Origin: Parvularcula bermudensis HTCC2503
GTDB taxonomy: Bacteria; Pseudomonadota; Alphaproteobacteria; Caulobacterales; Parvularculaceae
Direction: 5' to 3'
DNA: 64,000 bases
Assembly: GCF_000152825.2 (NCBI RefSeq)
Contig: NC_014414.1
Location: forward strand, 2,108,001-2,172,000
How positions within the stretch are numbered: the stretch's first letter is position 1; every line of letters starts with the position of its first letter. This document shows positions 36,426 to 49,790 of this stretch, in pieces. The notes below the pieces were generated by a model. That model saw nothing but the letters and a program-made list of their open reading frames with translations. It made no database searches and was not told where the DNA came from. The position numbers and the translations under genes are program-made.

Positions 36426-37450
36426 TGCAGCGCGGCGTCGGCATTGTCCTCGGTATCAGGGGCGGTGAGACAGCCAGGGTCAATATGCAAGCCGACAATC
36501 ACGGTTCGCTGCAAAGGGTTGAAATTGTGGTCCGACACTAGATGCACGCGCAACGTGCCATCTTCGAGTGGCTCCACGACAAGACCTTCCATATTGTCGA
36601 CGCCATGAAGGATCGTCAGGCGCGCCAGTTCGAGCCCGTCAAGAATGGGAGGCGACGGCGGGGTTTCCTCCAGGCGAAGGGCCTCAGGCGACAGCTGCAC
36701 CAAGCGGGCCCTTGGGCCGGACAGCGCGCTGAAGGCGCGCTCCAGGACATAGACGCTTCCATCGGCAGTAGTCGTCAGCCCCGTGGGCGAAAAGTCCCCC
36801 GCCGGACGATATCTCCAGCGCCCCAACACCTCGCCCCCGCGGGAGAGATAGGTCAGCGCTGCTGTCCCATCCGAAGGGCGCGTATGCTCCGTGATCGCCA
36901 GATATCCGTCAGCCCAGGCGGTGACGCCTTCAAACCCCGCATTATTGGGCAGGGCGTTCCGACCGACGGCGTAGAACGGGGGCTCTTCCTCGAGATAGAG
37001 ATCACCGTCTTCGGTGAACCATGAGAGACGATGATCTCCCTCAATACCGATCAAAAGGCGCTGCCCTTCGATGACCAGACTTTCGGCATCGCCGCGACGC
37101 TTGCCGAGAAAACGCCCTTGAGCGTCGGCAAGGGGGTGGGGGGTAAGGGAGATCACCTCGGTAATATAGCCGTTCTGATCCCGGCCGACGGTTCCCGTCC
37201 ATAAAAGACCCCGGTCCGACAGGAGAACGATCTCGTCCTTGGAGAGGTTGAGGGCGGAGAACCCGCCGAACCGGGCATCGGCGGCGGTCAGCGTGATGCC
37301 GGAGACCATCTGGGTCGCGCAATTGATGTGAATGGGACGATTGTTGAACCCTGGAAAGGGCTGCGACAGGGGAGTGACCTGCTGTGCCGCTGCGCTGGTC
37401 ATCACCACGAGCAGCGCGCCCAATCCGCAAAGACCGTATCGCCCGCTCAT
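36422..37450 (-). CDS. Esterase-like protein of the phytase family, exported
   Basis: A 342-residue protein with a signal peptide ([14 protein letters not shown]) and a beta-propeller-like body. Blocks [60 protein letters not shown] and [16 protein letters not shown] match the family called esterase-like activity of phytase (PF13449). Conserved Glu/Asp in these loops would bind calcium or phosphate. The start overlaps the cobT stop by four bases, so it is coupled to cobT. Substrate is unknown. Confidence 0.85.
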
Positions 37451-39336
37451 CGGCTACGTCGCCGGGGGCGCCGGCGCCCATCGCTTTGATCGGCGAACAG
37501 GTCAGCCAATTGCTCCGTCATGGCCCCGCCAAGCTGATCGACATCCTGAATGGTCAGGGCACGGTCATAAAACCGCGTCACATCGTGACCGATACCGATG
37601 GCGATCAACTGGATCGGTGAGGCGTTTTCGATGAAGGCAATGGTCTCACGCAGATGCCGTTCGAGATATCCGCCGCCATTTACCGACGAGGTGGTATCGT
37701 CCACCGGCGCCCCGTCGGAAATCACCATCAGGATCCGCCGCGCCTCGGGCCGCTGGATCAGGCGATCATGCGCCCATTGCAGGGCCTCTCCATCGATATT
37801 TTCCTTCAGCAATCCCTCCTTGAGCATCAGGGCCAGATTGTCCTTGGCCCGACGCCAGGGCACGCTTGCGGGCTTGTAGATGATGTGACGGAGATCATTC
37901 AGCCGACCGGGGTTTTTCGGGCGATCCTCGGCCACCCATTTCTCCCGCGACTGCCCCCCCTTCCAGGCGCGTGTCGTGAACCCAAGGATCTCGACCTTCA
38001 CCCCACAGCGCTCAAGAGTACGGGCGAGGATATCCCCGCAAAGGGCGGCGACCATAATGGGACGGCCGCGCATGGATCCTGAATTATCAATCAGCAGCGT
38101 GACCGCCGTATCGCGGAACGCTTGATCCTGTTCCTGCTTGAAGGACAGGGGTTGGGTCGGGTCGATCACCACCCGGGAAAGGCGCGACGCATCGAGAATA
38201 CCCTCGTCGAGATCGAACCGCCAATCGCGATTTTGCTGGGCGAGTAGCTGACGGTGGAGCCGGTTTGCCAAGCGGGCCACCAATTGGTGCAGGCTTTCGA
38301 GTTGCCCGTCGAGGGTTTGCCGAAGTCGCGCCAGCTCGGCGGCGTCGACCAGATCGAGGGGGTGAACGACTTCGTCGAAGTCCTTGGTATAGATCCCATA
38401 GGAGGCATTACTGTCGGCCAGCGGTTCGTTACGACGCTGCATTTCGGCGTTCGCCTGGGCGTCGGCGTCATCGTCCGTAGGCTCCCAATCAAGGGGCTGC
38501 GTCTCAACCTCCGCTTCTCCGTCCCGAGCCTCGCCAAATTCCGGCATCGCCGGCTCTTTGGCGCTGTCTTCCTGACTTTCATCCTCGCCGTCTTCGCCTT
38601 CTGTGTCGGCGTCGTCCTCACCGCCTGTCTCGGTGTCTTTGGGCTGTTCGTCGTCGTCGCCCTCTGTCTCATCATCTTCGCTGTCTTCGTGATCTGTGGT
38701 CGGATCGCCGATATCCAGATCCCGGAGCAGAGAGTGCACCGCCTCGGAAAACGCGGTTTGGTCCCGAAAAAGGGTGCGATCGGCGAGCCGCTCTAGGCTA
38801 TCCCCGGCCCGCTCTTCGATCTCGCGCCGCCATTGGTCGACCAAGGCCCGCGCTGCGTCCGGCGTCGGGCGTCCGGTGATGCGCTCGCGCGCCATGAGGC
38901 CGAGAATATCGGAGAGGGGGATATCCTGGCGATCCTCCATCCGGCGATACCCACGGTCCTCAAGCCGCTGACTGAGGGAGGCATGAAGATTGTCCCCGAC
39001 CCCGTCCAGCGCCGTGGCCCCAAGGGCCTCGACACGCACGGTCTCAAGTGCCGTATGGGCCGCCGCCCCGTCAGCGTTTTGCGGGGCAAGGCGCGCATGG
39101 AGCGCGGGATCGTGGTGGGCAAGGCGCAAAGCCGCTTCATCGGCATGGCCGCGCGCCACGGCCAGCTGCGCTTCGTCCATTCGGCGGGGGGGAAGGGGCA
39201 GGCGCACATCCGTCCCGGCAACTTGAGGTTTATCGCCGACGAATTTCACCGTCACATCCGGCTCGGCCGCGAGGGCCTTGGTCGTCTGCGCGAGCAATTG
39301 CTTCAGCTGTTCTGCGGGCGAAGGGGATGAGGCCAT
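37447..39336 (-). CDS. cobT: Cobaltochelatase subunit CobT
   Basis: The large VWA subunit of the aerobic cobaltochelatase, which with the AAA+ CobS and CobN inserts cobalt into hydrogenobyrinate diamide for B12. The 629 residues have a helical N-terminal part (1-215), a very acidic linker (about 220-310, runs such as [11 protein letters not shown]), and a C-terminal VWA domain with the metal site LLIDNSGSM and a later VISDGAP. The ATG overlaps a 14-bp palindrome and has no Shine-Dalgarno. No cobS is in the window, although it is usually adjacent. Related Mg-chelatase-like VWA proteins are the alternative, but length and ending favour CobT. Confidence 0.92.
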
Positions 39337-39353: not shown

Positions 39354-39425
39354 CCAAGGGCCTCCGGGCCTAGGCGTTTTGGGGTCTCGGTCACCAAAAA
39401 AAGACGCAAAGGGTTTATGAAAGAA

Positions 39426-39480
39426 AAGGGCCTTTTCGATAAAGGGGTGGGGAGTGTTCGGGCAGCGAAGGGCCTTTTCG
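39426..39480 (+). repeat. Pair of 13-bp direct repeats before the PPTase gene
   Basis: AAGGGCCTTTTCG occurs at 39426-39438 and again at 39468-39480, start to start 42 bases (four helical turns). Each copy contains the near-palindrome AAGGGCCTTTT. If translation starts at GTG 39480, both copies are upstream of the coding region and could be binding sites for a regulator of the operon. Confidence 0.6.
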
Positions 39481-40088
39481 TGCAGCAGATTACGGTGCGT
39501 CTTTTCGATCTTGATGAGAGCCCCCAACCCAGTGGAGGTCCCGGGGAAAGGGGAACGAGACCTCAATGTCGGCAACGATCGGGCCGCGCCCTTCGGCAAT
39601 ATGAGCTGGCCTGCGCCTATGGCTGCCGGCCGGAGGCGGTCGAGCTGAAGGGCGGGCGTGCCCTGCTGCCGGGGGGAGGGTCCCCAGCGGTGAGCTACAC
39701 CCGATCGGGCCGCTTTGCGCTGTTCGCCTTCGCCGATCACGGCCCCCTAGGAATCGACCTCGAAGCCTTCGATGGCGTACCGGATGAAGAGATTCCCTCT
39801 CTTGCGAGAGATCATCTCGCCCCCGCCGCGGCTGCCGAGATCGAGGCCGCCGGATCGCAGGGCGCCAAACGATCCTTTCTTTTCCATTGGACGGCGATGG
39901 AGGCTGTTGGAAAAGCGGCCCGTACAGGTCTGGCGATCGCCCATCGAAGCGGGGCGCTTTCGGCGACCGCCCGTGGTCTTGCGGTTTGGCATCGCGTGCC
40001 GCGTATCGGCTATATGGCGGCTCTTGCCGCCGCGCCGGGGGCAAGGGTCACTTGGAGAGGGGCGGCATCCTTGCCGGTGACGGTATGA
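39480..40088 (+). CDS. 4'-phosphopantetheinyl transferase (Sfp-like)
   Basis: Attaches the phosphopantetheine arm of CoA to a carrier-protein serine. Of about 202 residues, the magnesium-site motif is GIDLEAF and the second motif is FLFHWTAMEAVGKAARTG, a W-T-x-x-E-A-x-x-K version of the usual WTxKEA, placing it in the Sfp/EntD class. I chose the GTG because GAAGGG sits seven bases upstream and it places the first beta strand (ITVRLFDLDE) at the N-terminus as in relatives; an ATG at 39417 gives 21 more residues. The ATGA overlap with the next gene, an adenylation-carrier protein, identifies its likely client. Confidence 0.85.
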   Translation: MQQITVRLFDLDESPQPSGGPGERGTRPQCRQRSGRALRQYELACAYGCRPEAVELKGGRALLPGGGSPAVSYTRSGRFALFAFADHGPLGIDLEAFDGVPDEEIPSLARDHLAPAAAAEIEAAGSQGAKRSFLFHWTAMEAVGKAARTGLAIAHRSGALSATARGLAVWHRVPRIGYMAALAAAPGARVTWRGAASLPVTV

Positions 40089-41854
40089 GCCCCCTGACCG
40101 ACCCCGTTTGGGACCGCCTCAATGCCACTGAGGTCAAATGGCCGCCCGGAGATGTGGTGGCGCTGTTCGATGCACAGGCCGCGGCCCATCCAACCCACAC
40201 CGCTATTCGGTTCATGGGAACCGATGTCAGCTATGGCGAGGTGCAGCGCCGGAGTTGTCAAATCGCCCTTGAATTACAGCCCCGCCTCTCCCCCATGGAG
40301 GCTGACACGCCGCCGGTGGTGGGATTGGCGGGACCCCGCAATCCCGATTTGGTCGCCGCGCTGATCGGCATATGGCGGGCGGGGGCCGTGGCGTTGCCCA
40401 TCGATCTCGATCATCCCGAGGCTCGGCGCGCTTATCTGGTGGAGAACAGCGGCGCTGCTTTCGTTGTTGGGCCCGCGGATCTTTCCCCGAAGGAATCGGA
40501 CACCGCCGCATCTGTGGATGGCGGCCTGTCGTCACACAGGCCCGATTTTGCCTATTTGCAATATACGTCCGGCTCCACAGGTAAACCCAAAGGTGTGAAG
40601 GGCGGACATCCGCAATTAGCGAACTTCCTCCATGCCATGGCATCGCTTCTGTCATTCGGGGCGGACGATCGTCTCTTGGCGGTGACGACGCTCTCCTTCG
40701 ACATTGCGCTGCTCGAATGGTTCCTGCCCCTGATCTGTGGCGGGTCGATCATTCTACCGAGCGATGATCAGGCGGCGGACGGGGAGGCGATGGTCACCTT
40801 GTTGCGTGAGGAGGCAGCATCGTTTTTTCAGGGCACCCCCGCAACTTGGCGGTTGTTACTTGATGCCGGTCTTGGCCCCCATAGTGGGCTCACCGCGCTT
40901 TGCGGGGGGGAGCCTTTGCCATCGGCGCTCGCCGCGACACTCCTGCCGAAGGTCGGATCGCTTTGGAACGTCTACGGACCGACGGAGACGACGGTGTGGT
41001 CGACGGCGGGGCGAATCGATACGCCTGAGGCGATCCATGTCGGTCGGCCCCTCGCCAATACCGTTCTCAGCATTCTCGATGAGCATGACCGGCGGGTGCC
41101 GCCGGATACGCCAGGCGAATTAATCATTGGCGGGGAGGGGGTGGCCCTCGGCTATCATGCGCGGCCTGAGGAGACCGCCGCCCGGTTTACCGAGGCGCCG
41201 CCGGACTCCGGCCTTGAGGGGAAAGTCTACCTCACCGGGGATCGGGCTGTGTTGACCTCGGACGGGGTCATCCGGCTATTGGGCCGGGCCGATGCCCAAG
41301 TCAAAATCAGGGGGTTTCGCATCGAACTCGGCGAAGTGGAAAACGCCCTCGGACAGGTCACGGCAGGGGGCGCCGCCGCCGCCACGGTGCACACGGATGG
41401 CGCCGGTGAGGCCATGCTGGTGGGGTATGTGAGTGCCGCTTCTGGCCGTCGCAAGCCCACAGCCAGCACCCTAAGGCGGGGTCTAAGGGCCCTTCTGCCG
41501 GACTATATGATCCCCCAACGCTTTGTGGTGCTCGACAGTCTTCCGCTGACGCCGAACGGCAAAATTGATCGCAAGGCGCTGCCCGCGCCGGGGCGCCAGA
41601 TAAGCCAGAGCCGAGGGCGCCCGCCGCAAACAGCGGATGAGCAGGCCCTTGCCGCTGCCTTTCAGGCGGTTCTGGGGGTCGAAACCGTCTCGACGACGGA
41701 CAATTTCGTCACCCTCGGCGGGCAATCGTTGCAAGCCGCACGGGTTGCCACACGCTTTCGCGAAGCCACGGGGAAGGTCATCACGCCGCGGGCGCTGTTA
41801 TTTGAAACCCTCGAGCAGGCCGCCGCCGGGGCCACGACGCCGGGGCAGGGATGA
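40085..41854 (+). CDS. Adenylation-carrier protein didomain (NRPS-like), predicted glycine-specific
   Basis: A 589-residue stand-alone A-PCP protein that should activate an amino acid as aminoacyl-AMP and load it on its own carrier domain. Core motifs: A3 LQYTSGSTGKPKG, A5 NVYGPTETT, A7/A8 YLTGDRA and KIRGFRIELGEVE, A10 PLTPNGKIDRKAL with Lys493. The carrier motif is LGGQSL with Ser548. My hand alignment gives pocket residues Asp206, Ile207, Leu210, Gln249, Leu272, Gly274, Val296, Val304, Trp305 and Lys493, close to the known glycine code. There is no condensation or thioesterase domain. It is coupled to the PPTase before it and the hydrolase after it. It is not the plain AMP ligase usual in exosortase A loci. 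Confidence 0.9.
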   Translation: MSPLTDPVWDRLNATEVKWPPGDVVALFDAQAAAHPTHTAIRFMGTDVSYGEVQRRSCQIALELQPRLSPMEADTPPVVGLAGPRNPDLVAALIGIWRAGAVALPIDLDHPEARRAYLVENSGAAFVVGPADLSPKESDTAASVDGGLSSHRPDFAYLQYTSGSTGKPKGVKGGHPQLANFLHAMASLLSFGADDRLLAVTTLSFDIALLEWFLPLICGGSIILPSDDQAADGEAMVTLLREEAASFFQGTPATWRLLLDAGLGPHSGLTALCGGEPLPSALAATLLPKVGSLWNVYGPTETTVWSTAGRIDTPEAIHVGRPLANTVLSILDEHDRRVPPDTPGELIIGGEGVALGYHARPEETAARFTEAPPDSGLEGKVYLTGDRAVLTSDGVIRLLGRADAQVKIRGFRIELGEVENALGQVTAGGAAAATVHTDGAGEAMLVGYVSAASGRRKPTASTLRRGLRALLPDYMIPQRFVVLDSLPLTPNGKIDRKALPAPGRQISQSRGRPPQTADEQALAAAFQAVLGVETVSTTDNFVTLGGQSLQAARVATRFREATGKVITPRALLFETLEQAAAGATTPGQG

Positions 41855-42570
41855 TGGCGCCCTTGTCCGAAAGGGCGGCCACGCCGCCGCCGGAGAGCCC
41901 CCCGATGGAGCCGATGATGTTCGGCACCAGTGAGGCCCCCCTTTACGGTGTCTATCACGATACAGCAGTGCCCGCGCGGCGAGCGGCGTTGCTCGTGCCC
42001 CCCTTCGGTGAGGAAACGATCCGTGCCCATCGCCCATTTCTCGCTCTCGCTACGGCGCTGAGCGCCGCCGGCGTCGCCGTCCTTCGCTATGATGCGTTCG
42101 GGACTGGAAATTCGGCAGGGGACGATCGCGACGTGACAAAACAGACCATGATCGACAGCCTCCTCGCCGCGGATGATGAATTGCGGGCGATGAGCCAAGC
42201 TCAAAAGATTGTCTGGATCGGCCTCCGATTTGGATCGCTGGTCGCCATGGCCGCCGCGGAGATGCGCCCGCCGACGAGGATCGTGGGGTGGGACGCGCCC
42301 GCCCATGCGGCGGACCATCTGGCCGATCTGATCCGCCGCGATCCCTCAGCGATGAGGGGCGATGGCGCCTATCCCGACGAGCTTCTCGGCCATCCCTTAC
42401 CGCCGAGCCTTGCCGCGCAAATGACCGCGGACTGGCGGGGACCGAGCGATGAGACGGCGCGCGTGACCACCGCAGCTGAGGAGGATTGGAATGCAGACGG
42501 CGCGCTCTCGACGTTCCGTGTCCCTGTGCGAACGATTAGTCGGCTGACGGCGCTGATGGCCGCACGATGA
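41851..42570 (+). CDS. Alpha/beta-hydrolase fold protein, exosortase-A hydrolase 2 type
   Basis: A 239-residue protein with the alpha/beta-hydrolase start (AALLVPPFGEE) and the strand-helix VAVLRYDAFGTGNSAGDDRD. The nucleophile elbow reads WIGLRFGSLVA: the Ser position is Arg, so it cannot act by the usual serine mechanism. From memory the exosortase-A-associated hydrolase 2 family has a similar GLRxG elbow, so this looks like a family trait rather than decay. ATGATG overlaps the stop of the didomain gene. It may be a non-catalytic carrier-interacting or acyl-binding protein. Confidence 0.75.
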   Translation: MMAPLSERAATPPPESPPMEPMMFGTSEAPLYGVYHDTAVPARRAALLVPPFGEETIRAHRPFLALATALSAAGVAVLRYDAFGTGNSAGDDRDVTKQTMIDSLLAADDELRAMSQAQKIVWIGLRFGSLVAMAAAEMRPPTRIVGWDAPAHAADHLADLIRRDPSAMRGDGAYPDELLGHPLPPSLAAQMTADWRGPSDETARVTTAAEEDWNADGALSTFRVPVRTISRLTALMAAR

Positions 42571-43376
42571 CCGAGGAGGAATTGATCTTCTTTGGACCGG
42601 AGGAGGGACTGGTCGGCACGTTGACCTCCCCCGGCGGCCCTTCCAAGGGGAGGATTGTCATTCCCAATGCCGGGATTGTCGGACGGGCCGGGCCCCATCG
42701 GCTCCATACCCGGCTTGCGAGATCCCTGGCGGATGAGGGCTATGACGTTCTGCGGATTGACCTGCACGGGCTTGGGGACAGTGCCCCACCGCCTGGCGAT
42801 CTCGGTCACGAGGCCCAGGCTGTGGCGGATATCAAAGCTGCAATCGATGCCCTGGGCTCGGGGAGAGGGCGAATAATCCTGATGGGATTATGTTCGGGGG
42901 CGGATAATGCGCAAGCGACGGCGCTGATCGATGACCGGGTCACGGACCTTATATTACTCGATCCACACGCCTTCGCTCACCCGCGCCGGGTCGCCCTGAC
43001 CCTCATGCAAAAGGCCGCCTCACCTGCGCGATGGGCAGCCCTGATCTCGAGAGCAGCTCAACGACAAGCGAATACTGCTTCCCCCGCCCCGTCCGACCGT
43101 CCGGTGCCTGACAGGCGAGATTTTGCCGACCAATGGCAGGCCCTGGCGCGCCGCGGTGTCGGCATCTATGCGCGCTATACAAATCATGTGAGCCATATCG
43201 TGGCCTCCGCCGAGGAGGCACGCCTTGGTCTCGGTCTACCAAAAGACAGGCAAGACCCCAGGCTCTGCATCGAAATGGATAAGGACGCCAATCATACTTA
43301 TACGGACCTTAAAGCTCAAGGGCGCCTCGACTTGGCCATCAAGAGCTGGCTGAGAGCGTCAGGGGGAGCGGCGTGA
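42567..43376 (+). CDS. Alpha/beta hydrolase, exosortase-A hydrolase 1 type, Cys elbow
   Basis: A 269-residue alpha/beta hydrolase. VIPNAGIVGRAGPHRLHTRL and VLRIDLHGLGDSAPPPGDLG are typical N-terminal blocks. The nucleophile elbow is ILMGLCSGADNA, so Cys (or the next Ser) stands where Ser is expected in GxSxG, and the distal histidine is in DKDANHTYTD. The set resembles the hydrolase 1 family of exosortase A loci. A Cys nucleophile suits thioester or acyl transfer, so release of the glycyl group from the carrier protein is a reasonable guess. ATGA overlap with the preceding gene. Confidence 0.8.
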   Translation: MTEEELIFFGPEEGLVGTLTSPGGPSKGRIVIPNAGIVGRAGPHRLHTRLARSLADEGYDVLRIDLHGLGDSAPPPGDLGHEAQAVADIKAAIDALGSGRGRIILMGLCSGADNAQATALIDDRVTDLILLDPHAFAHPRRVALTLMQKAASPARWAALISRAAQRQANTASPAPSDRPVPDRRDFADQWQALARRGVGIYARYTNHVSHIVASAEEARLGLGLPKDRQDPRLCIEMDKDANHTYTDLKAQGRLDLAIKSWLRASGGAA

Positions 43377-44884
43377 CGATGGAGCCACAAGCCGACGCGG
43401 TCCCAAGCCCGGCGATCTCAAGCAGGTCTTTGGGCGGACGGGTGGCCAAGGGCGCCGCTCTGTTGACGGGCGCCAACATGATTGCGCGCGGCATCGGCCT
43501 CATCAATACACTCATCCTCTCCCGCTTGCTGATTCCAGAGGATTTCGGGCTGATCGCCATCGGCATGACGGTCATGCAGCTTCTCCAGAATTTCTCCGAT
43601 ATCGGCGTTTCCCAGGCGGTGGTGAAATATCGCGATGCCGATCGGCGGTTTCTCGATACACTCTTCACGCTCTCGATCCTTCGGGGGGCGCTGGTGGGCG
43701 GGCTTCTCATGGCAGGGGCGCCCCTTGCCGCGACATTCTACGGCGATGATCGCATCCTCTTTGTCTTTTGCGCTTTTGGCGGGCTGGCTTTCATCAATGC
43801 GCTCATCAACCCTCAATTCTACGAATTTGAACGGAATCTGGATTTTCGCCGGGAAGTGCTGGTCAGTCTTTCGGTGAAGCTTGCCGCGGTGCTCATCTCG
43901 GTTCTGATTGCCTTGATCTATAAGAGCTATTGGGCCCTGATTTGCGGCTATGGGGCGGGGGTCCTGCTTGAGGTCGTGCTCTCTCATCTGCTGATCCGCG
44001 AGGGCCGCCGGCGCCTCGATCTGTCGGCGATGAAAGAATTACTTGGCTTCACCGGCTGGCTCACCGCCACAAGTGCCGTCGTTGCTGCGAATAATAAACT
44101 CGAACCCTTGATCCTTGGCCGGATCATCGGCTTTGGGGGGACAGGCCATTATTATCTCGGCGAACAATTTGCCTTCCTACCGGCTTATGAGCTTGCAACC
44201 CCGATTGCCCGCGCGCTCTATCCGGGGTTTTCCTCCGTTCAGAGTGATAAAAAAGAGGCGCGGCGGGTATTTCTCCGCGGTGTAGAGGCTCTTGCGGCGA
44301 TCTCTCTACCGGCATCGGTGGGACTTGCCTTCTTGGCGCATGACTTTGTGATGACAGTATTGGGCGCAAAATGGGCGCCGGTGATTCCCGTTCTGCAAAT
44401 CCTTGCGCCGGCTTTTGGCTTTACCACGATCTATTGGGCCACCGAAGGACTTGCGCTTGCCCTTGGCCGAGTAAAGCTGGTCTTTTGGCGGGCTCTTATC
44501 TATTTTATTATTCGTACCCCGCTATTCATCGCGGCGGCGATCAGCTTTGGATTGACCGGGGCCGTTGTTGCCGCCGCGTTGGCGAGCGTGATTTATGTCG
44601 GATTACAGGGCCAGCTCTATAGTCATGTGACCGGGGATCACCCTTTGCGTCCGCTGATGTCCGCGCGCCGAAGCCTTGGCGCCGTAGGCGGGATGAGCCT
44701 TTGGTTCCTCTGGGGCCAACCGGTATTCAGTGGGGCCCCGGTCCTTATCGATCTTGTCCTCGGGACTCTGATTGGGGGGCTCATCTATACAGGGTGCCAT
44801 TTCGGGCTATGGGTGCTGAGCGGACGCTCCAACGGCATTGAGCGTGTAATCCTCAATTTCGGTCGACGCGTGGTGCAGCGGTGA
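43373..44884 (+). CDS. Polysaccharide flippase, Wzx/MOP family
   Basis: A 503-residue membrane protein of about 12-14 helices that should flip lipid-linked glycan units across the inner membrane. It opens with a short polar N-terminus, then GANMIARGIGLINTLILSR and LIPEDFGLIAIGMTVMQLLQ, which are the family-typical first helices (PST/RfbX type). Later LSVKLAAVLISVLIALIYKS and AFGFTTIYWATEGLALALGR fit the same fold. The start GTG overlaps the previous stop (GTGA). Its presence makes the operon a glycan-building one rather than secretion of a free peptide. Confidence 0.88.
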   Translation: MTMEPQADAVPSPAISSRSLGGRVAKGAALLTGANMIARGIGLINTLILSRLLIPEDFGLIAIGMTVMQLLQNFSDIGVSQAVVKYRDADRRFLDTLFTLSILRGALVGGLLMAGAPLAATFYGDDRILFVFCAFGGLAFINALINPQFYEFERNLDFRREVLVSLSVKLAAVLISVLIALIYKSYWALICGYGAGVLLEVVLSHLLIREGRRRLDLSAMKELLGFTGWLTATSAVVAANNKLEPLILGRIIGFGGTGHYYLGEQFAFLPAYELATPIARALYPGFSSVQSDKKEARRVFLRGVEALAAISLPASVGLAFLAHDFVMTVLGAKWAPVIPVLQILAPAFGFTTIYWATEGLALALGRVKLVFWRALIYFIIRTPLFIAAAISFGLTGAVVAAALASVIYVGLQGQLYSHVTGDHPLRPLMSARRSLGAVGGMSLWFLWGQPVFSGAPVLIDLVLGTLIGGLIYTGCHFGLWVLSGRSNGIERVILNFGRRVVQR

Positions 44885-45981
44885 AGCGAGTCCTCCACCT
44901 CATCCCCAGCTTTGAGCTCGGGGGCGTCCAGCGTCGTTTGGTGCAGTGCGTTCGGGGTCTGACCGGGTGGGAGCACATCATCATCAGTCTCAGCCCCCAT
45001 CTTGAGGCAGAGCGGCTCCTCCCTGAGCGGACCAATGTGATGTCTCTTTGCCTTGCCCCCTCAAAAGGGCTTGGCATGGGGAATGTTCTGAGCCTCAGAA
45101 AGCAGATGAGGGCGATCGCCCCGCATCTTTATTGCACCTATAATTGGGGCAGCATGGAGGCGGTGGCGGCGATCCGCAGTCTCGGTCACGGCCCGTATCA
45201 TCTGCACCATGAGGATGGATTTGGCGCGGAGGAGGCCGTTAAACGCTCGCCTGTCAGGAATGCCCTACGGCGTGGCCTCCTGGGATTTGGCCCAGCCCAG
45301 ATGATCGTGCCGTCCCAGACCTTGCAAACAATTGCGGTACAGGAATGGGGGCTGCCCCGCGACCGCTGTCATTTTGTGGCGAACGGGATCGATATCGACC
45401 ATTTTGCGCCGCCCCCTGACGAGGCATCGCGGGCGGGGGTGGGAATCGTGGCGGCCCTTCGGCCGGAAAAGAATATTGGCCGGTTCCTGCGTTTGGCAGC
45501 GGCTTTCCCCGACACGGCGTTCGACATTGTCGGGGCCGGTCCGCTGAAAACTGATCTCGAAAAAGCCGCTCCGGCCAATGTCCGTTTCCATGGCGCTGTC
45601 GCCAATCCGGCCGCTCACTATCGTCGATGGCGTTGTTTCGTTTTAACATCCTCTACGGAGCAAATGCCCCTCACCGTACTTGAAGCGATGGCCAGTGGCC
45701 TTCCCGTTGTTGCGACGGCGGTCGGTGACATTGCCCAAATGGTGGCGCCTCAAAATCGGCCCTTCATCGTTCCTTGTGAGGATGAAGAAGGATTGGACAC
45801 AAAACTCAGAGAAATTCTCACCGATGGGAAGGCGGCCGATGCACTGGGCAATGCCAATCGGCAGCACACCGTTGAGCGGTATAGTCTCGACAATATGCTT
45901 GCCACCTACCAGGCGCTTTATGATCGCTTCGGACGTGCCGAGAGCCATATTGAGTTCTCTCGGAATCCAGAACGTCTGTAG
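44881..45981 (+). CDS. Glycosyltransferase family 4
   Basis: A 366-residue GT-B glycosyltransferase. The N-terminal Rossmann half begins VLHLIPSFELGGVQRRLVQC, with the GG loop, and later shows PSQTLQTIAVQEWG then VANGIDIDHFAPP. The C-terminal half has AALRPEKNIGRFLRLAAAF, FDIVGAGPLKTDLEKA and SSTEQMPLTVLEAMASGLPV, the ExFxxxxxEAMA-like donor site. It would act on the cytoplasmic face before flipping. The start GTG overlaps the previous stop, and it is the last gene of the six-gene operon. Sugar specificity is unknown. Confidence 0.9.
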   Translation: MKRVLHLIPSFELGGVQRRLVQCVRGLTGWEHIIISLSPHLEAERLLPERTNVMSLCLAPSKGLGMGNVLSLRKQMRAIAPHLYCTYNWGSMEAVAAIRSLGHGPYHLHHEDGFGAEEAVKRSPVRNALRRGLLGFGPAQMIVPSQTLQTIAVQEWGLPRDRCHFVANGIDIDHFAPPPDEASRAGVGIVAALRPEKNIGRFLRLAAAFPDTAFDIVGAGPLKTDLEKAAPANVRFHGAVANPAAHYRRWRCFVLTSSTEQMPLTVLEAMASGLPVVATAVGDIAQMVAPQNRPFIVPCEDEEGLDTKLREILTDGKAADALGNANRQHTVERYSLDNMLATYQALYDRFGRAESHIEFSRNPERL

Positions 45982-46039: not shown

Positions 46040-47218
46040 CTAGCGGCGGAGTTCGGCGATGGCCCGATCAAGACCGCCAAGGGTCAAAGGGTACATTCGC
46101 CCTTCGATGAGCTGTTGGGTAATTCCCACTGAGGGCGAGTAGGTCCATCGCGCTTCGGGGAGGGGGTTCAGCCAGGCCATTTTCGGGAAATGATCCGTCA
46201 ATCGCTGCATCCAAAGCGCCCCTGGCTCCTCGTTGAAATACTCAACCGACCCCCCCGGCATTGTGATTTCATAAGGGCTCATCGTCGCGTCGCCGACGAA
46301 CAAAGCCACATAATCCTTGCCATAGGTCCGAAGCACTTCGTCCGTTCGAACACGATCGGACCACCGACGGGAATTATCCTTCCACATGAAATCATATGTA
46401 AAATTGTGAAAGTAGAAATACTCAAGATGTTTGAACTCAGCCCGCGCGGCGGAGAATAATTCCTCACAAATACGGATATAAGGATCCATCGATCCACCGA
46501 TATCAAAAAAGAGAAGGACACGGACGGTATTGCGCCGCTCGGGCCGCATTTGCACGTCGAGATATCCACTTCGAGCCGTGTGATCGATTGTTCCATCGAG
46601 ATCGAATTCGTCCGCCGCCCCTTGCCGCGCGAATTTCCGCAGCTTGCGGAGGGCCACCTTGATGTTCCGTGTCCCCAATTGGACATCGTCCTGAAGATTT
46701 CGAAATTCCCGCTTTTCCCATACTTTCACGGCACGCTTGTGGCGCGATTGCCCCCCAATGCGGATGCCTTCCGGATGATAGCCGGAATGGCCGAAAGGGG
46801 AGGTGCCGCCGGTCCCGATCCATTTCGAGCCGCCTTCGTGGCGCTCGGTCTGCTCCTTGAGGCGCTCCTCAAGCTGCCGCATCAGTTCGTCCCACCCGCC
46901 CATTTTCTCGATCGCGGCTTTCTCTTCATCGGTCAGATATTTCTCGGTGACGGCACGCAGCCAATCCTCCGGGATTTCCTGCGGCGCCGGGCCGTCGATT
47001 GAGAGGCTCTCAATCCCTTTGAAGACCTCACCGAACACCCGGTCGAAACGATCGAGGTGCCGTTCATCCTTCACCAACACGGCGCGGCTGAAATAATAGA
47101 ATTGCTCGACGGATCGTTCCGGCAATTCTGCCTGCATGCCTTCGAGCAAGGTGAGATATTCCCGAAGCGACACGGGAACCCCAGCCTGTTTGAGGTCAAA
47201 GAAGAATTGCACGAACAT
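46040..47218 (-). CDS. VWA-domain protein, CoxE-like
   Basis: A 392-residue cytoplasmic protein of the CoxE/YehP-like VWA family. The N-terminus MFVQFFFDLKQAGVPVSLRE is characteristic. The middle part (SPFGHSGYHPEGIRIGGQSR and RNLQDDVQLGTRNIKVALRK) precedes the VWA fold, whose metal site is altered (LLFFDIGGSM in place of DxSxS). VGDATMSPYEI continues the VWA fold. Such proteins usually work with a MoxR AAA+ ATPase to insert cofactors or assemble enzymes, but no MoxR gene is next to it. It converges on the glycosyltransferase. Confidence 0.88.
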   Translation of the reverse strand: MFVQFFFDLKQAGVPVSLREYLTLLEGMQAELPERSVEQFYYFSRAVLVKDERHLDRFDRVFGEVFKGIESLSIDGPAPQEIPEDWLRAVTEKYLTDEEKAAIEKMGGWDELMRQLEERLKEQTERHEGGSKWIGTGGTSPFGHSGYHPEGIRIGGQSRHKRAVKVWEKREFRNLQDDVQLGTRNIKVALRKLRKFARQGAADEFDLDGTIDHTARSGYLDVQMRPERRNTVRVLLFFDIGGSMDPYIRICEELFSAARAEFKHLEYFYFHNFTYDFMWKDNSRRWSDRVRTDEVLRTYGKDYVALFVGDATMSPYEITMPGGSVEYFNEEPGALWMQRLTDHFPKMAWLNPLPEARWTYSPSVGITQQLIEGRMYPLTLGGLDRAIAELRR

Positions 47219-48704: not shown

Positions 48705-49790
48705 CTAATTCGCCTTCTGCTTCGTCTCCCCCGCAAAGGGGACATCGAGGCAAATCGTGGTCCCCGTCGCGCCCCGAACGACCGCCAATGTCGCGCCAAG
48801 CCCATCTGACAGGGTGCGAACTATTGATGCCCCCATCGTGTTGCTGTCAGGCCAGCTAATGTTATCCGGCATCCCATTGCCGTCATCCATCACTTCAAGA
48901 CGCATGGCGCCACGGGAGAGGTGACGCAAAGAGACTTCAATGAGTCCCGGCCCCCCCGTAACAAAGGCATGTTGGAACGCATTGGTGATAATTTCTGATG
49001 CGATCAGGCCGATACGCGCCGCCGTATCAATGGAGACATCGAATGATTCCGTGCGGATATTAAGACGAATATTTTCTCGGGCCTCAAGATGGCCAATGGC
49101 CGAGGCGATTCGCGAAACATACGCTCCCATGGGAATGGTTTGCGTCTCATCGTCTACCGCCTCGACCTGGCCGAGCTCTTGATAGAGTAATTGCAAGGTT
49201 TCGACCCTGTGGGCGAGGGCACGGTAGTTCATTTCAGACTTCGAATCGGTTTGTTCCGATTGCAAACGAATCATCGACACGACCAGTTGAAGATGGTTTT
49301 TGACCCGATGCTGTATCTCTTTCAGCTGAACAGAGATGGCATCAGGAGAGGTCGTCGCGTCGGAGACCCGCTGTTGAAGGCCCAGAAAGCAGGATAATTG
49401 ACCTGAATCGTCGAAAATCGGTTCGATCCGAAGATAATTGCGGAAAGGTTTGCCATCGGAACGATAGTTGAGAAGAACGGTTTCGACCGGCGCCGCGCGT
49501 TGAAGATGCTCTCGCATCTTTTTCACGGCCTCTTTGTCGGTGTCTGGTCCTTGTAAGAACCGGCAATTACGCCCGAGGGACACCTCAGCCGCATAGCCAG
49601 TGAGATTTTCGAACGCCCGGTTCACATAGACGATGGGATTGTCCTCCAACCCCGGATTGGTCAGGACAAAAGCGATCGGAAACCGTTCAAATGCCCGGAG
49701 CCGCAATTCGGTTTCGGGGATAGATCCGCTGCCGGTACCGACCAACTGCGCCGTCGCATTTTTGGAGGCATTATTTTCCTGGGTTGTCAC
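48705..49790 (-). CDS. LOV-domain blue-light histidine kinase (HWE/HisKA2 type)
   Basis: A 361-residue soluble photoreceptor kinase. The LOV domain (about 30-145) has the flavin-adduct motif GRNCRFLQGPDTD with Cys76, plus downstream Asn residues and a Gln near CFLGLQQRV that contact the flavin. The kinase part is HisKA2: KEIQHRVKNHLQLVVSM with His162, N-box ASEIITNAFQHAF and G-box MDDGNGMP. Blue light should form a Cys-FMN bond and change kinase activity. No PhyR/NepR stress module is beside it. It lies between aminopeptidase P and a second, degenerate kinase on the same strand. Confidence 0.94.
   Translation of the reverse strand: MTTQENNASKNATAQLVGTGSGSIPETELRLRAFERFPIAFVLTNPGLEDNPIVYVNRAFENLTGYAAEVSLGRNCRFLQGPDTDKEAVKKMREHLQRAAPVETVLLNYRSDGKPFRNYLRIEPIFDDSGQLSCFLGLQQRVSDATTSPDAISVQLKEIQHRVKNHLQLVVSMIRLQSEQTDSKSEMNYRALAHRVETLQLLYQELGQVEAVDDETQTIPMGAYVSRIASAIGHLEARENIRLNIRTESFDVSIDTAARIGLIASEIITNAFQHAFVTGGPGLIEVSLRHLSRGAMRLEVMDDGNGMPDNISWPDSNTMGASIVRTLSDGLGATLAVVRGATGTTICLDVPFAGETKQKAN

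Follow-up and report, generated by a model that had tools for sequence, protein, structure and literature searches.

What does a carrier protein of the peptide synthetase kind do in one operon with a Wzx-type flippase? The question is raised by six genes of Parvularcula bermudensis HTCC2503 at positions 39417-45981 of the window, by which we mean the whole stretch of 64,000 nucleotides analysed here (contig NC_014414.1, 2,108,001 to 2,172,000). They encode a phosphopantetheinyl transferase (PPTase), a didomain protein with an adenylation (A) and a peptidyl carrier protein (PCP) domain, two members of the alpha/beta-hydrolase family (hyd2 and hyd1), the flippase and a GT4 glycosyltransferase (GT). 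The reading that we favour, tentatively, is a carrier-based module for glycine transfer and flipping, in which hyd1, a cysteine-type enzyme, would work together with hyd2, by its sequence a pseudo-hydrolase.

Six coupled genes

The genes, all on the + strand, and the domain at the centre of the argument are:

39417..40088, + strand: PPTase, divergent, with the motifs GIDLE and WTAMEAVGKA (PF01648, ACPS, 33.2 bits, cut-off 25)
40085..41854, + strand: A-PCP didomain protein, 589 amino acids (aa) (PF00501, PF13193, PF00550; TIGR01733 327.9, cut-off 317.4)
41642..41821, + strand: PCP domain (PF00550, residues 520-579), serine in GGQSL (codon about 41726-41728)
41851..42570, + strand: hyd2, predicted pseudo-hydrolase (Hydrolase_4; TIGR03101 54.7 bits, cut-off 202.75; alignments; AlphaFold2 model, pLDDT 92.2)
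42567..43376, + strand: hyd1, Cys-type alpha/beta hydrolase (Hydrolase_4; TIGR03100 79.9 bits, cut-off 168.45; AlphaFold2 model, pLDDT 91.2)
43373..44884, + strand: Wzx-type MOP flippase, 503 aa (PF13440, Polysacc_synt_3, 210.6, cut-off 23; PF01943 108.9; PRK10459 184.2, below its cut-off of 273)
44881..45981, + strand: GT4 glycosyltransferase, 366 aa (PF13692, PF00534; TIGR03088 137.1, below its cut-off of 409)

All five junctions are 4-base start/stop overlaps of the form ATGA or GTGA. Coordinates, junctions and profile families bear out the coupled operon that a first-pass annotation, made from the letters alone, had described; the overlaps go beyond chance, and the operon is genuine. Of 14 relatives, 12 have candidate start codons that would give a 4-base overlap between hyd2 and hyd1; for hyd1 and Wzx this applies to 7 of the 10 in which Wzx shares the strand. 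A scan of the region for promoters and terminators gave a site count not above that of shuffled sequence, and we therefore make no claim on the limits of transcription.

No condensation or thioesterase family matched any of the six proteins (Pfam, E 0.01), as had been noted before. Nor was a condensation domain matched anywhere in the genome, a single contig of 2,902,643 bases (4 of 14 control genomes did match). The view that this is not a peptide synthetase line thus holds for this genome; related cassettes, however, mostly stand at the end of such lines.

The carrier and its probable amino acid

The ten-residue code of the A domain reads DILQLGVVWK and is of the glycine type, its positions being mapped by GrsA numbering. 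When the code region was compared with the PDB, the top match was 4zxh (230 bits; runner-up 171), which we take to be a glycine-bound synthetase structure. A near-identical code, DILQLGMIWK, is given for four Gly domains in PMC12283262, and PMC5466765 ties the NcmB code DILQLGVI to glycine. Judged by these codes, glycine, the amino acid already suspected in the first-pass annotation, is probably the substrate.

The protein has both an amino-acid adenylation domain (TIGR01733 above cut-off) and a carrier (PF00550), and the A-domain motifs A3, A5, A7, A8 and A10 and the PCP serine are all intact. A DltA-type ligase profile scored 226.2, short of its cut-off of 559.85. Counting the operon's PPTase, the genome has three ACPS matches, along with five carrier matches. 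Going by these residues, it is highly probable that the PCP would be loaded with glycine.

A cysteine hydrolase and its partner

Hyd1 has Cys109 (codon 42891-42893), Asp132 and His243 in this order, as read from its sequence. In hyd2 the nucleophile elbow is GLRFG, which places Arg126 (codon 42226-42228) at the nucleophile position, and the region that usually holds the His reads WNAD. By these residues hyd2 is a pseudo-hydrolase that has lost its nucleophile. Of the two alpha/beta-hydrolase proteins annotated before, both keep their family (Hydrolase_4), but hyd2 is without a nucleophile.

We examined these positions in relatives, among them 80 named loci (the best 80 of 137 confirmed). Hyd2 is present in 79 of the 80; the exception, L050, begins at a contig end. 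Two scripts with different patterns located the elbow in 74 and 73 of the 79 loci. In the set of 73, on which the tally is based, its central residue is Arg (64), Gly (8) or Lys (1) and never Ser or Cys. Cys109 is kept in 111 of 111 hyd1 relatives, in the named-locus set partly by construction, since one of the two search patterns contains CSGAD; the Cys is also present in members from the full-length search and the TIGR03100 search, both free of that bias. Of the 86 synthetase-type proteins, 84 have D or E at position 132, a candidate catalytic site. His243 aligns in every row of this group and falls in a gap in 6 of 14 exosortase-type and 3 of 11 fused rows. The tally leaves out 12 duplicate loci and matches shorter than 120 aa, so that it covers 14 of 16 exosortase-type loci.

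In the fused type, hyd2 and hyd1 form one open frame (11 loci, L157 and L161-L170), as they do in the exosortase-type locus L156; this gene structure points to a physical pairing of the two proteins, supporting the idea of a heterodimer. Foldseek searches with both models returned generic esterases and thioesterases among the matches listed, compatible with a transferase or a hydrolase.

The pair behind glycine-type modules

The named loci come from Pseudomonadota, Myxococcota, Thermodesulfobacteriota, Fibrobacterota, Gemmatimonadota, Acidobacteriota, Planctomycetota, Nitrospinota, Bdellovibrionota, Actinomycetota and KSB1. They include near-copies (for example seven Corallococcus loci), so that the number of independent events is below that of loci. 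In 48 of 53 loci the first full A domain met upstream of hyd2 (at most 3.6 kb away, same strand) is of the glycine type, versus 1 of 30 control domains; within 1 kb the count is 39 of 43. The other 27 of the 80 loci have a contig edge, an A domain on the opposite strand, a partial one or none in that range. For the control, 120 genomes of the window's phylum supplied the 30 A domains with the highest scores, no genome giving more than one; a second control domain (code DILQMG) comes close to the glycine type.

Past the A-PCP profile match, no more than 64 aa of frame remain in any of the 43 closest named loci, too little to accommodate a thioesterase. At least 400 aa of open frame precede the A-PCP in 41 of these 43, and a condensation-type motif (pattern only) was found in 35 of them and in 52 of the 80 overall. 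Stand-alone A-PCP proteins are rare: among the 43, the A-PCP begins near the gene start in L056 alone (the locus also listed as L040). Because a glycine-type A domain lies upstream and a thioesterase has no room, the gene arrangement suggests that the pair is a stand-alone means of unloading glycine-ended carriers. At L100 and L119 (Roseobacteraceae), the A domain by hyd2 has the code DIVQIGGIYK, which is not of the glycine type.

Within the window's own family, Parvularculaceae, a full-length search found hyd1 in 21 of 62 genomes, 16 of them at E <1e-30, with the present genome included. Most of the 16 extended family loci have hyd2, hyd1 and Wzx side by side, and the trio often follows large genes for nonribosomal peptide synthetases (NRPS) or hybrids of polyketide synthase (PKS) and NRPS. 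Three of the 16 were domain-checked by Pfam: L029 (T-aminotransferase-C, A-T, C-A-T), L030 (KS-AT, then T-aminotransferase-C-A-T) and L031 (T-aminotransferase-C-A-T, with its own stand-alone thioesterase, PF00975), where C is a condensation and T a carrier domain. All three have an in-line class III aminotransferase before the C domain and a terminal A-PCP, an architecture suggesting beta-amino-acyl-glycine products. Such NRPS/PKS lines, in Parvularculaceae and in other phyla, share the cassette of glycine-type PCP, hyd2 and hyd1, and the window's hyd1 nests among them; their condensation, PKS and aminotransferase parts are absent from the window operon.

The whole six-gene order recurs in L040/L056. 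The co-occurrence that the first-pass annotation had named as its check is therefore found, both in this order and in the 79 loci with hyd2 by hyd1.

Relation to the exosortase hydrolases

The pair had been likened to hydrolases 1 and 2 of exosortase A loci. Homology stands, and in both cases hyd2 precedes hyd1 (in the loci viewed) near an AMP-ligase; membership does not. The window pair misses both family cut-offs (TIGR03100 79.9 of 168.45, TIGR03101 54.7 of 202.75), and the exosortase hydrolases have CDxA and Asn132 where the window has CSGA and Asp132. In a tree of 112 hyd1 proteins, the 14 exosortase-type sequences form one clade (100/99) and the 11 fused ones another (100/97). The window's hyd1 sits outside the exosortase clade, in a 17-row clade (100/100) of which all but one member come from its own family; its nearest neighbours are L029, then L030, both synthetase-linked. 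Cut-offs, tree and residue 132 thus rule out that hyd1 and hyd2 are exosortase hydrolases 1 and 2. The frames that fuse hyd2 and hyd1 (L156, L157, L161-L170; L177-L182) are about 575 aa or longer and belong to other genomes of the phylum.

The expectation that a plain AMP ligase takes the place of the A-PCP in exosortase loci is correct for the ligase, but incomplete. In three such loci viewed (L172, L174, L175), a ligase-like protein is followed by a small separate open reading frame (ORF), then hyd2 and hyd1; by profile, position and length, the small ORF may be a carrier.

Exosortase systems are tied to exopolysaccharide (EPS), which together with the exosortase-type and fused loci suggests, without proving it, an old role of the pair in glycan assembly. 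The present genome has an XrtA exosortase above cut-off (L217:18017-19018, about 2.680 Mb), approximately 0.53 Mb from the operon. The 40 kb around it hold XerC, DnaG, RpoD and a Kdo-transferase-like gene; no glycan-polymer gene was found among 10 proteins scanned there, two large ORFs just upstream lying outside the scan. An exosortase match is present in all 16 family genomes with a strong hyd1 and also in 42 of 46 without one, so that co-presence says little. The searched parts of a Sphingomonas EPS paper and of the 2006 PEP-CTERM paper held nothing on the hydrolase pair.

Glycan genes beside the pair

Wzx adjoins hyd1 in 14 of the 16 extended family loci, in four of them convergently, and a GT 42-43% identical to that of the window follows Wzx in L030 and L040. 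Flippases or GTs also adjoin the pair outside Parvularculaceae and beside fused copies. Some glycan-gene context for the pair, as first proposed, is thus present. A survey that excluded Parvularculaceae, along with 15 near-copy loci, listed 155 downstream ORFs, many perhaps spurious. The 95 of them that were scanned gave 5 Glycos_transf_1, 5 Glycos_transf_2 and 4 flippase-family matches, counts that have no matched background and are illustrative only. Of six fused loci retrieved, four were probed: two are near flippases (one also near Wzz and Wzy_C), one is near a PP-binding ORF and one has no nearby glycan-assembly match.

Origin of the minimal operon

The operon lies between two genes of the opposite strand, both outside it:

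37447..39336, - strand: CobT, left neighbour (TIGR01651 793 bits, cut-off 759)
46040..47218, - strand: convergent right neighbour, presumably a VWA-type protein, marking a conserved slot; a 77-78% identical gene stands beside L029 and L040

The six-gene order recurs together with the flanking VWA gene in another Parvularcula-labelled bin (L040/L056), and L029 is a full NRPS locus beside the same gene. A joined tree of A domain, hyd2, hyd1 and Wzx, midpoint-rooted for drawing, places the window as sister to L029 (100/99). One clade of the two minimal operons (window and L040), that is, a single origin, was rejected (p-AU 0.002); both branches are long. Judged from the tree, two separate reductions are likely, the long branches leaving this short of proof.

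A model for glycine transfer

In the module that we favour, the PCP would be primed by the PPTase, and the A domain would activate glycine and load it on the PCP as a thioester. Cys109 of hyd1, in a heterodimer with the catalytically dead hyd2, would accept the glycine from the PCP and pass it not to water but to an acceptor with an amine or hydroxyl group. This acceptor would be a lipid-linked sugar or glycolipid built with the operon's GT4 and flipped outward by Wzx. In most relatives, where the line does not end in a thioesterase, the same pair would release peptidyl or polyketidyl chains that end in glycine. That hyd1/hyd2 takes over the carrier-bound group is likely. That a lipid-linked glycan receives it, as Wzx, GT4 and the glycan genes beside the pair in other phyla suggest, we put forward with reserve.

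The scheme has partial precedents. In LPS (lipopolysaccharide) glycylation by AlmEFG of Vibrio cholerae, carrier-bound glycine ends on LPS; AlmEFG and Dlt (D-alanylation of teichoic acid) resemble the window in that a single amino acid is adenylated, put on a carrier by the adenylating enzyme and brought to an envelope (glyco)lipid, there via an acyltransferase (PMC3783018). Unlike these systems, the window has A domain and carrier fused, and the role of transferase is proposed for a Cys-type alpha/beta hydrolase whose partner is catalytically dead. The acyltransferase families LPLAT and MBOAT had no Pfam match in the six operon proteins, to which this search was confined. For nocamycin, the accessible text describes a glycine-type C-A-PCP that is offloaded by a separate hydrolase-fold enzyme with Cys-Asp-His (NcmC). 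TrdC and NcmC thus resemble hyd1 as separate alpha/beta-hydrolase-fold enzymes with Cys-Asp-His in order, acting on a glycine-type terminal module. They differ in that the same text mentions no paired pseudo-hydrolase, and the window has no acyl chain to cyclise. NcmC (6E6Y) is absent from 16 profile matches at 1e-6 and from the best 50 of 1653 Foldseek rows. LgnA (with a canonical Ser triad), CmaE and SyrC move an aminoacyl group from a carrier to another acceptor; in contrast to our proposal, that acceptor is another carrier.

Several points weigh against the model. The acceptor is a guess from neighbouring glycan genes only, and since most relatives would pass on a longer chain, action on glycyl alone is an extrapolation. 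The operon has one GT and, among its six genes, no polymerase or initiating transferase (no search for these was made in the rest of the genome). Wzx is missing beside hyd1 in L044 and also in L036, where some 14 kb downstream are covered, and outside Parvularculaceae glycan genes are frequent, not universal, other neighbours being an aromatic ammonia lyase and a cupin. The acid at position 132 is not universal either: Asn stands there in 14 of 14 exosortase-type, 11 of 11 fused and 2 of 86 synthetase-type proteins. Among the nearest A domains, 5 of 53 are not of the glycine type, whereas these loci hold 31 further A domains of which 19 are, so that glycine is common and not specific to the last module; the remaining codes include some that we take to be Ser-, Thr- or Phe-like. 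Finally, the longest branches of the joined tree are those of the two minimal operons (window 1.3, L040 1.42; median 0.29), which fits a changed function or decay.

Alternatives to the model

The operon might make and export a small glycosylated metabolite containing glycine, with Wzx moving an amphipathic natural product and not a surface-glycan precursor. This is unlikely. The set of hyd2, hyd1 and Wzx does end PKS/NRPS genes in L029, L030 and L031, the first of which is the window's sister, but this genome has no condensation domain, the six genes include none for an acyl chain, and a Wzx-fold exporter would be odd for a small soluble product. Decay would explain the long branches and the nesting of both minimal operons among full lines: the operon would be what is left of a PKS/NRPS line since lost and would do little, and hyd1/hyd2 would be editing or recycling hydrolases. 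In addition, WTAMEAVGKA of the PPTase deviates at the Lys from the consensus WxxKEAxxK. Against this stand six open genes with five overlaps, and intact A-domain motifs, PCP serine and hyd1 Cys, Asp and His; editing is also made less likely by L031, which at least has a separate thioesterase of its own. We regard decay as improbable.

Quite improbable is an accessory unit of an exosortase-A/EPS system, in which A-PCP and hydrolases would stand in for ligase, carrier and hydrolases 1/2. Homology to TIGR03100 and TIGR03101, a GT near TIGR03088, the XrtA above cut-off and the exosortase match in every strong-hyd1 family genome speak for it. Yet all these operon proteins score below the family cut-offs, hyd1 falls outside the exosortase clade with Asp, not Asn, at 132, XrtA is distant and without glycan-polymer genes among its scanned neighbours, and exosortase matches are widespread also where a strong hyd1 is missing. 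We give very little credence to the idea that the glycyl carrier acts in trans for a PKS encoded elsewhere in the genome (about 1.464-1.477 Mb), with hyd1 releasing the chain as NcmC does, by a cyclisation of the Dieckmann type or another. That locus does encode two PKS proteins (KS-AT-KR-DH and KS-AT-PPTase) along with small PP-binding ORFs, and NcmC is a Cys-Asp-His enzyme that offloads a glycine-ended chain; however, no condensation domain is there to join acyl and glycine, the PKS is some 0.67 Mb away, and NcmC is missing from the sequence and structure matches given above. As a side observation, this PKS locus (L133, 1460001-1480000 of the genome) also has a phosphodiesterase.

A wider claim than the glycine module is possible, although we hold it with more doubt. 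The heterodimer of Cys-hydrolase and pseudo-hydrolase may be a widespread, unrecognised acyl-transfer machine for glycine-ended carrier intermediates; in Parvularcula it would have been freed from the peptide line and would feed glycine to a lipid-linked glycan before Wzx flipping, a third carrier-based envelope aminoacylation beside Dlt and Alm. Our searches of an openly licensed library turned up no paper that names the pair in this role. If the claim is true, a hydrolase pair so far called 'exosortase-associated' or left unnamed gains a function, product release by thioesterase-less glycine-ended synthetases of several phyla is explained, and bacterial envelope glycans have a new route of amino-acid decoration.

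Beyond the right neighbour, a histidine kinase at 48705-49790 (- strand) resembles LOV-type blue-light-activated kinases, scoring 166 bits where the cut-off is 450.

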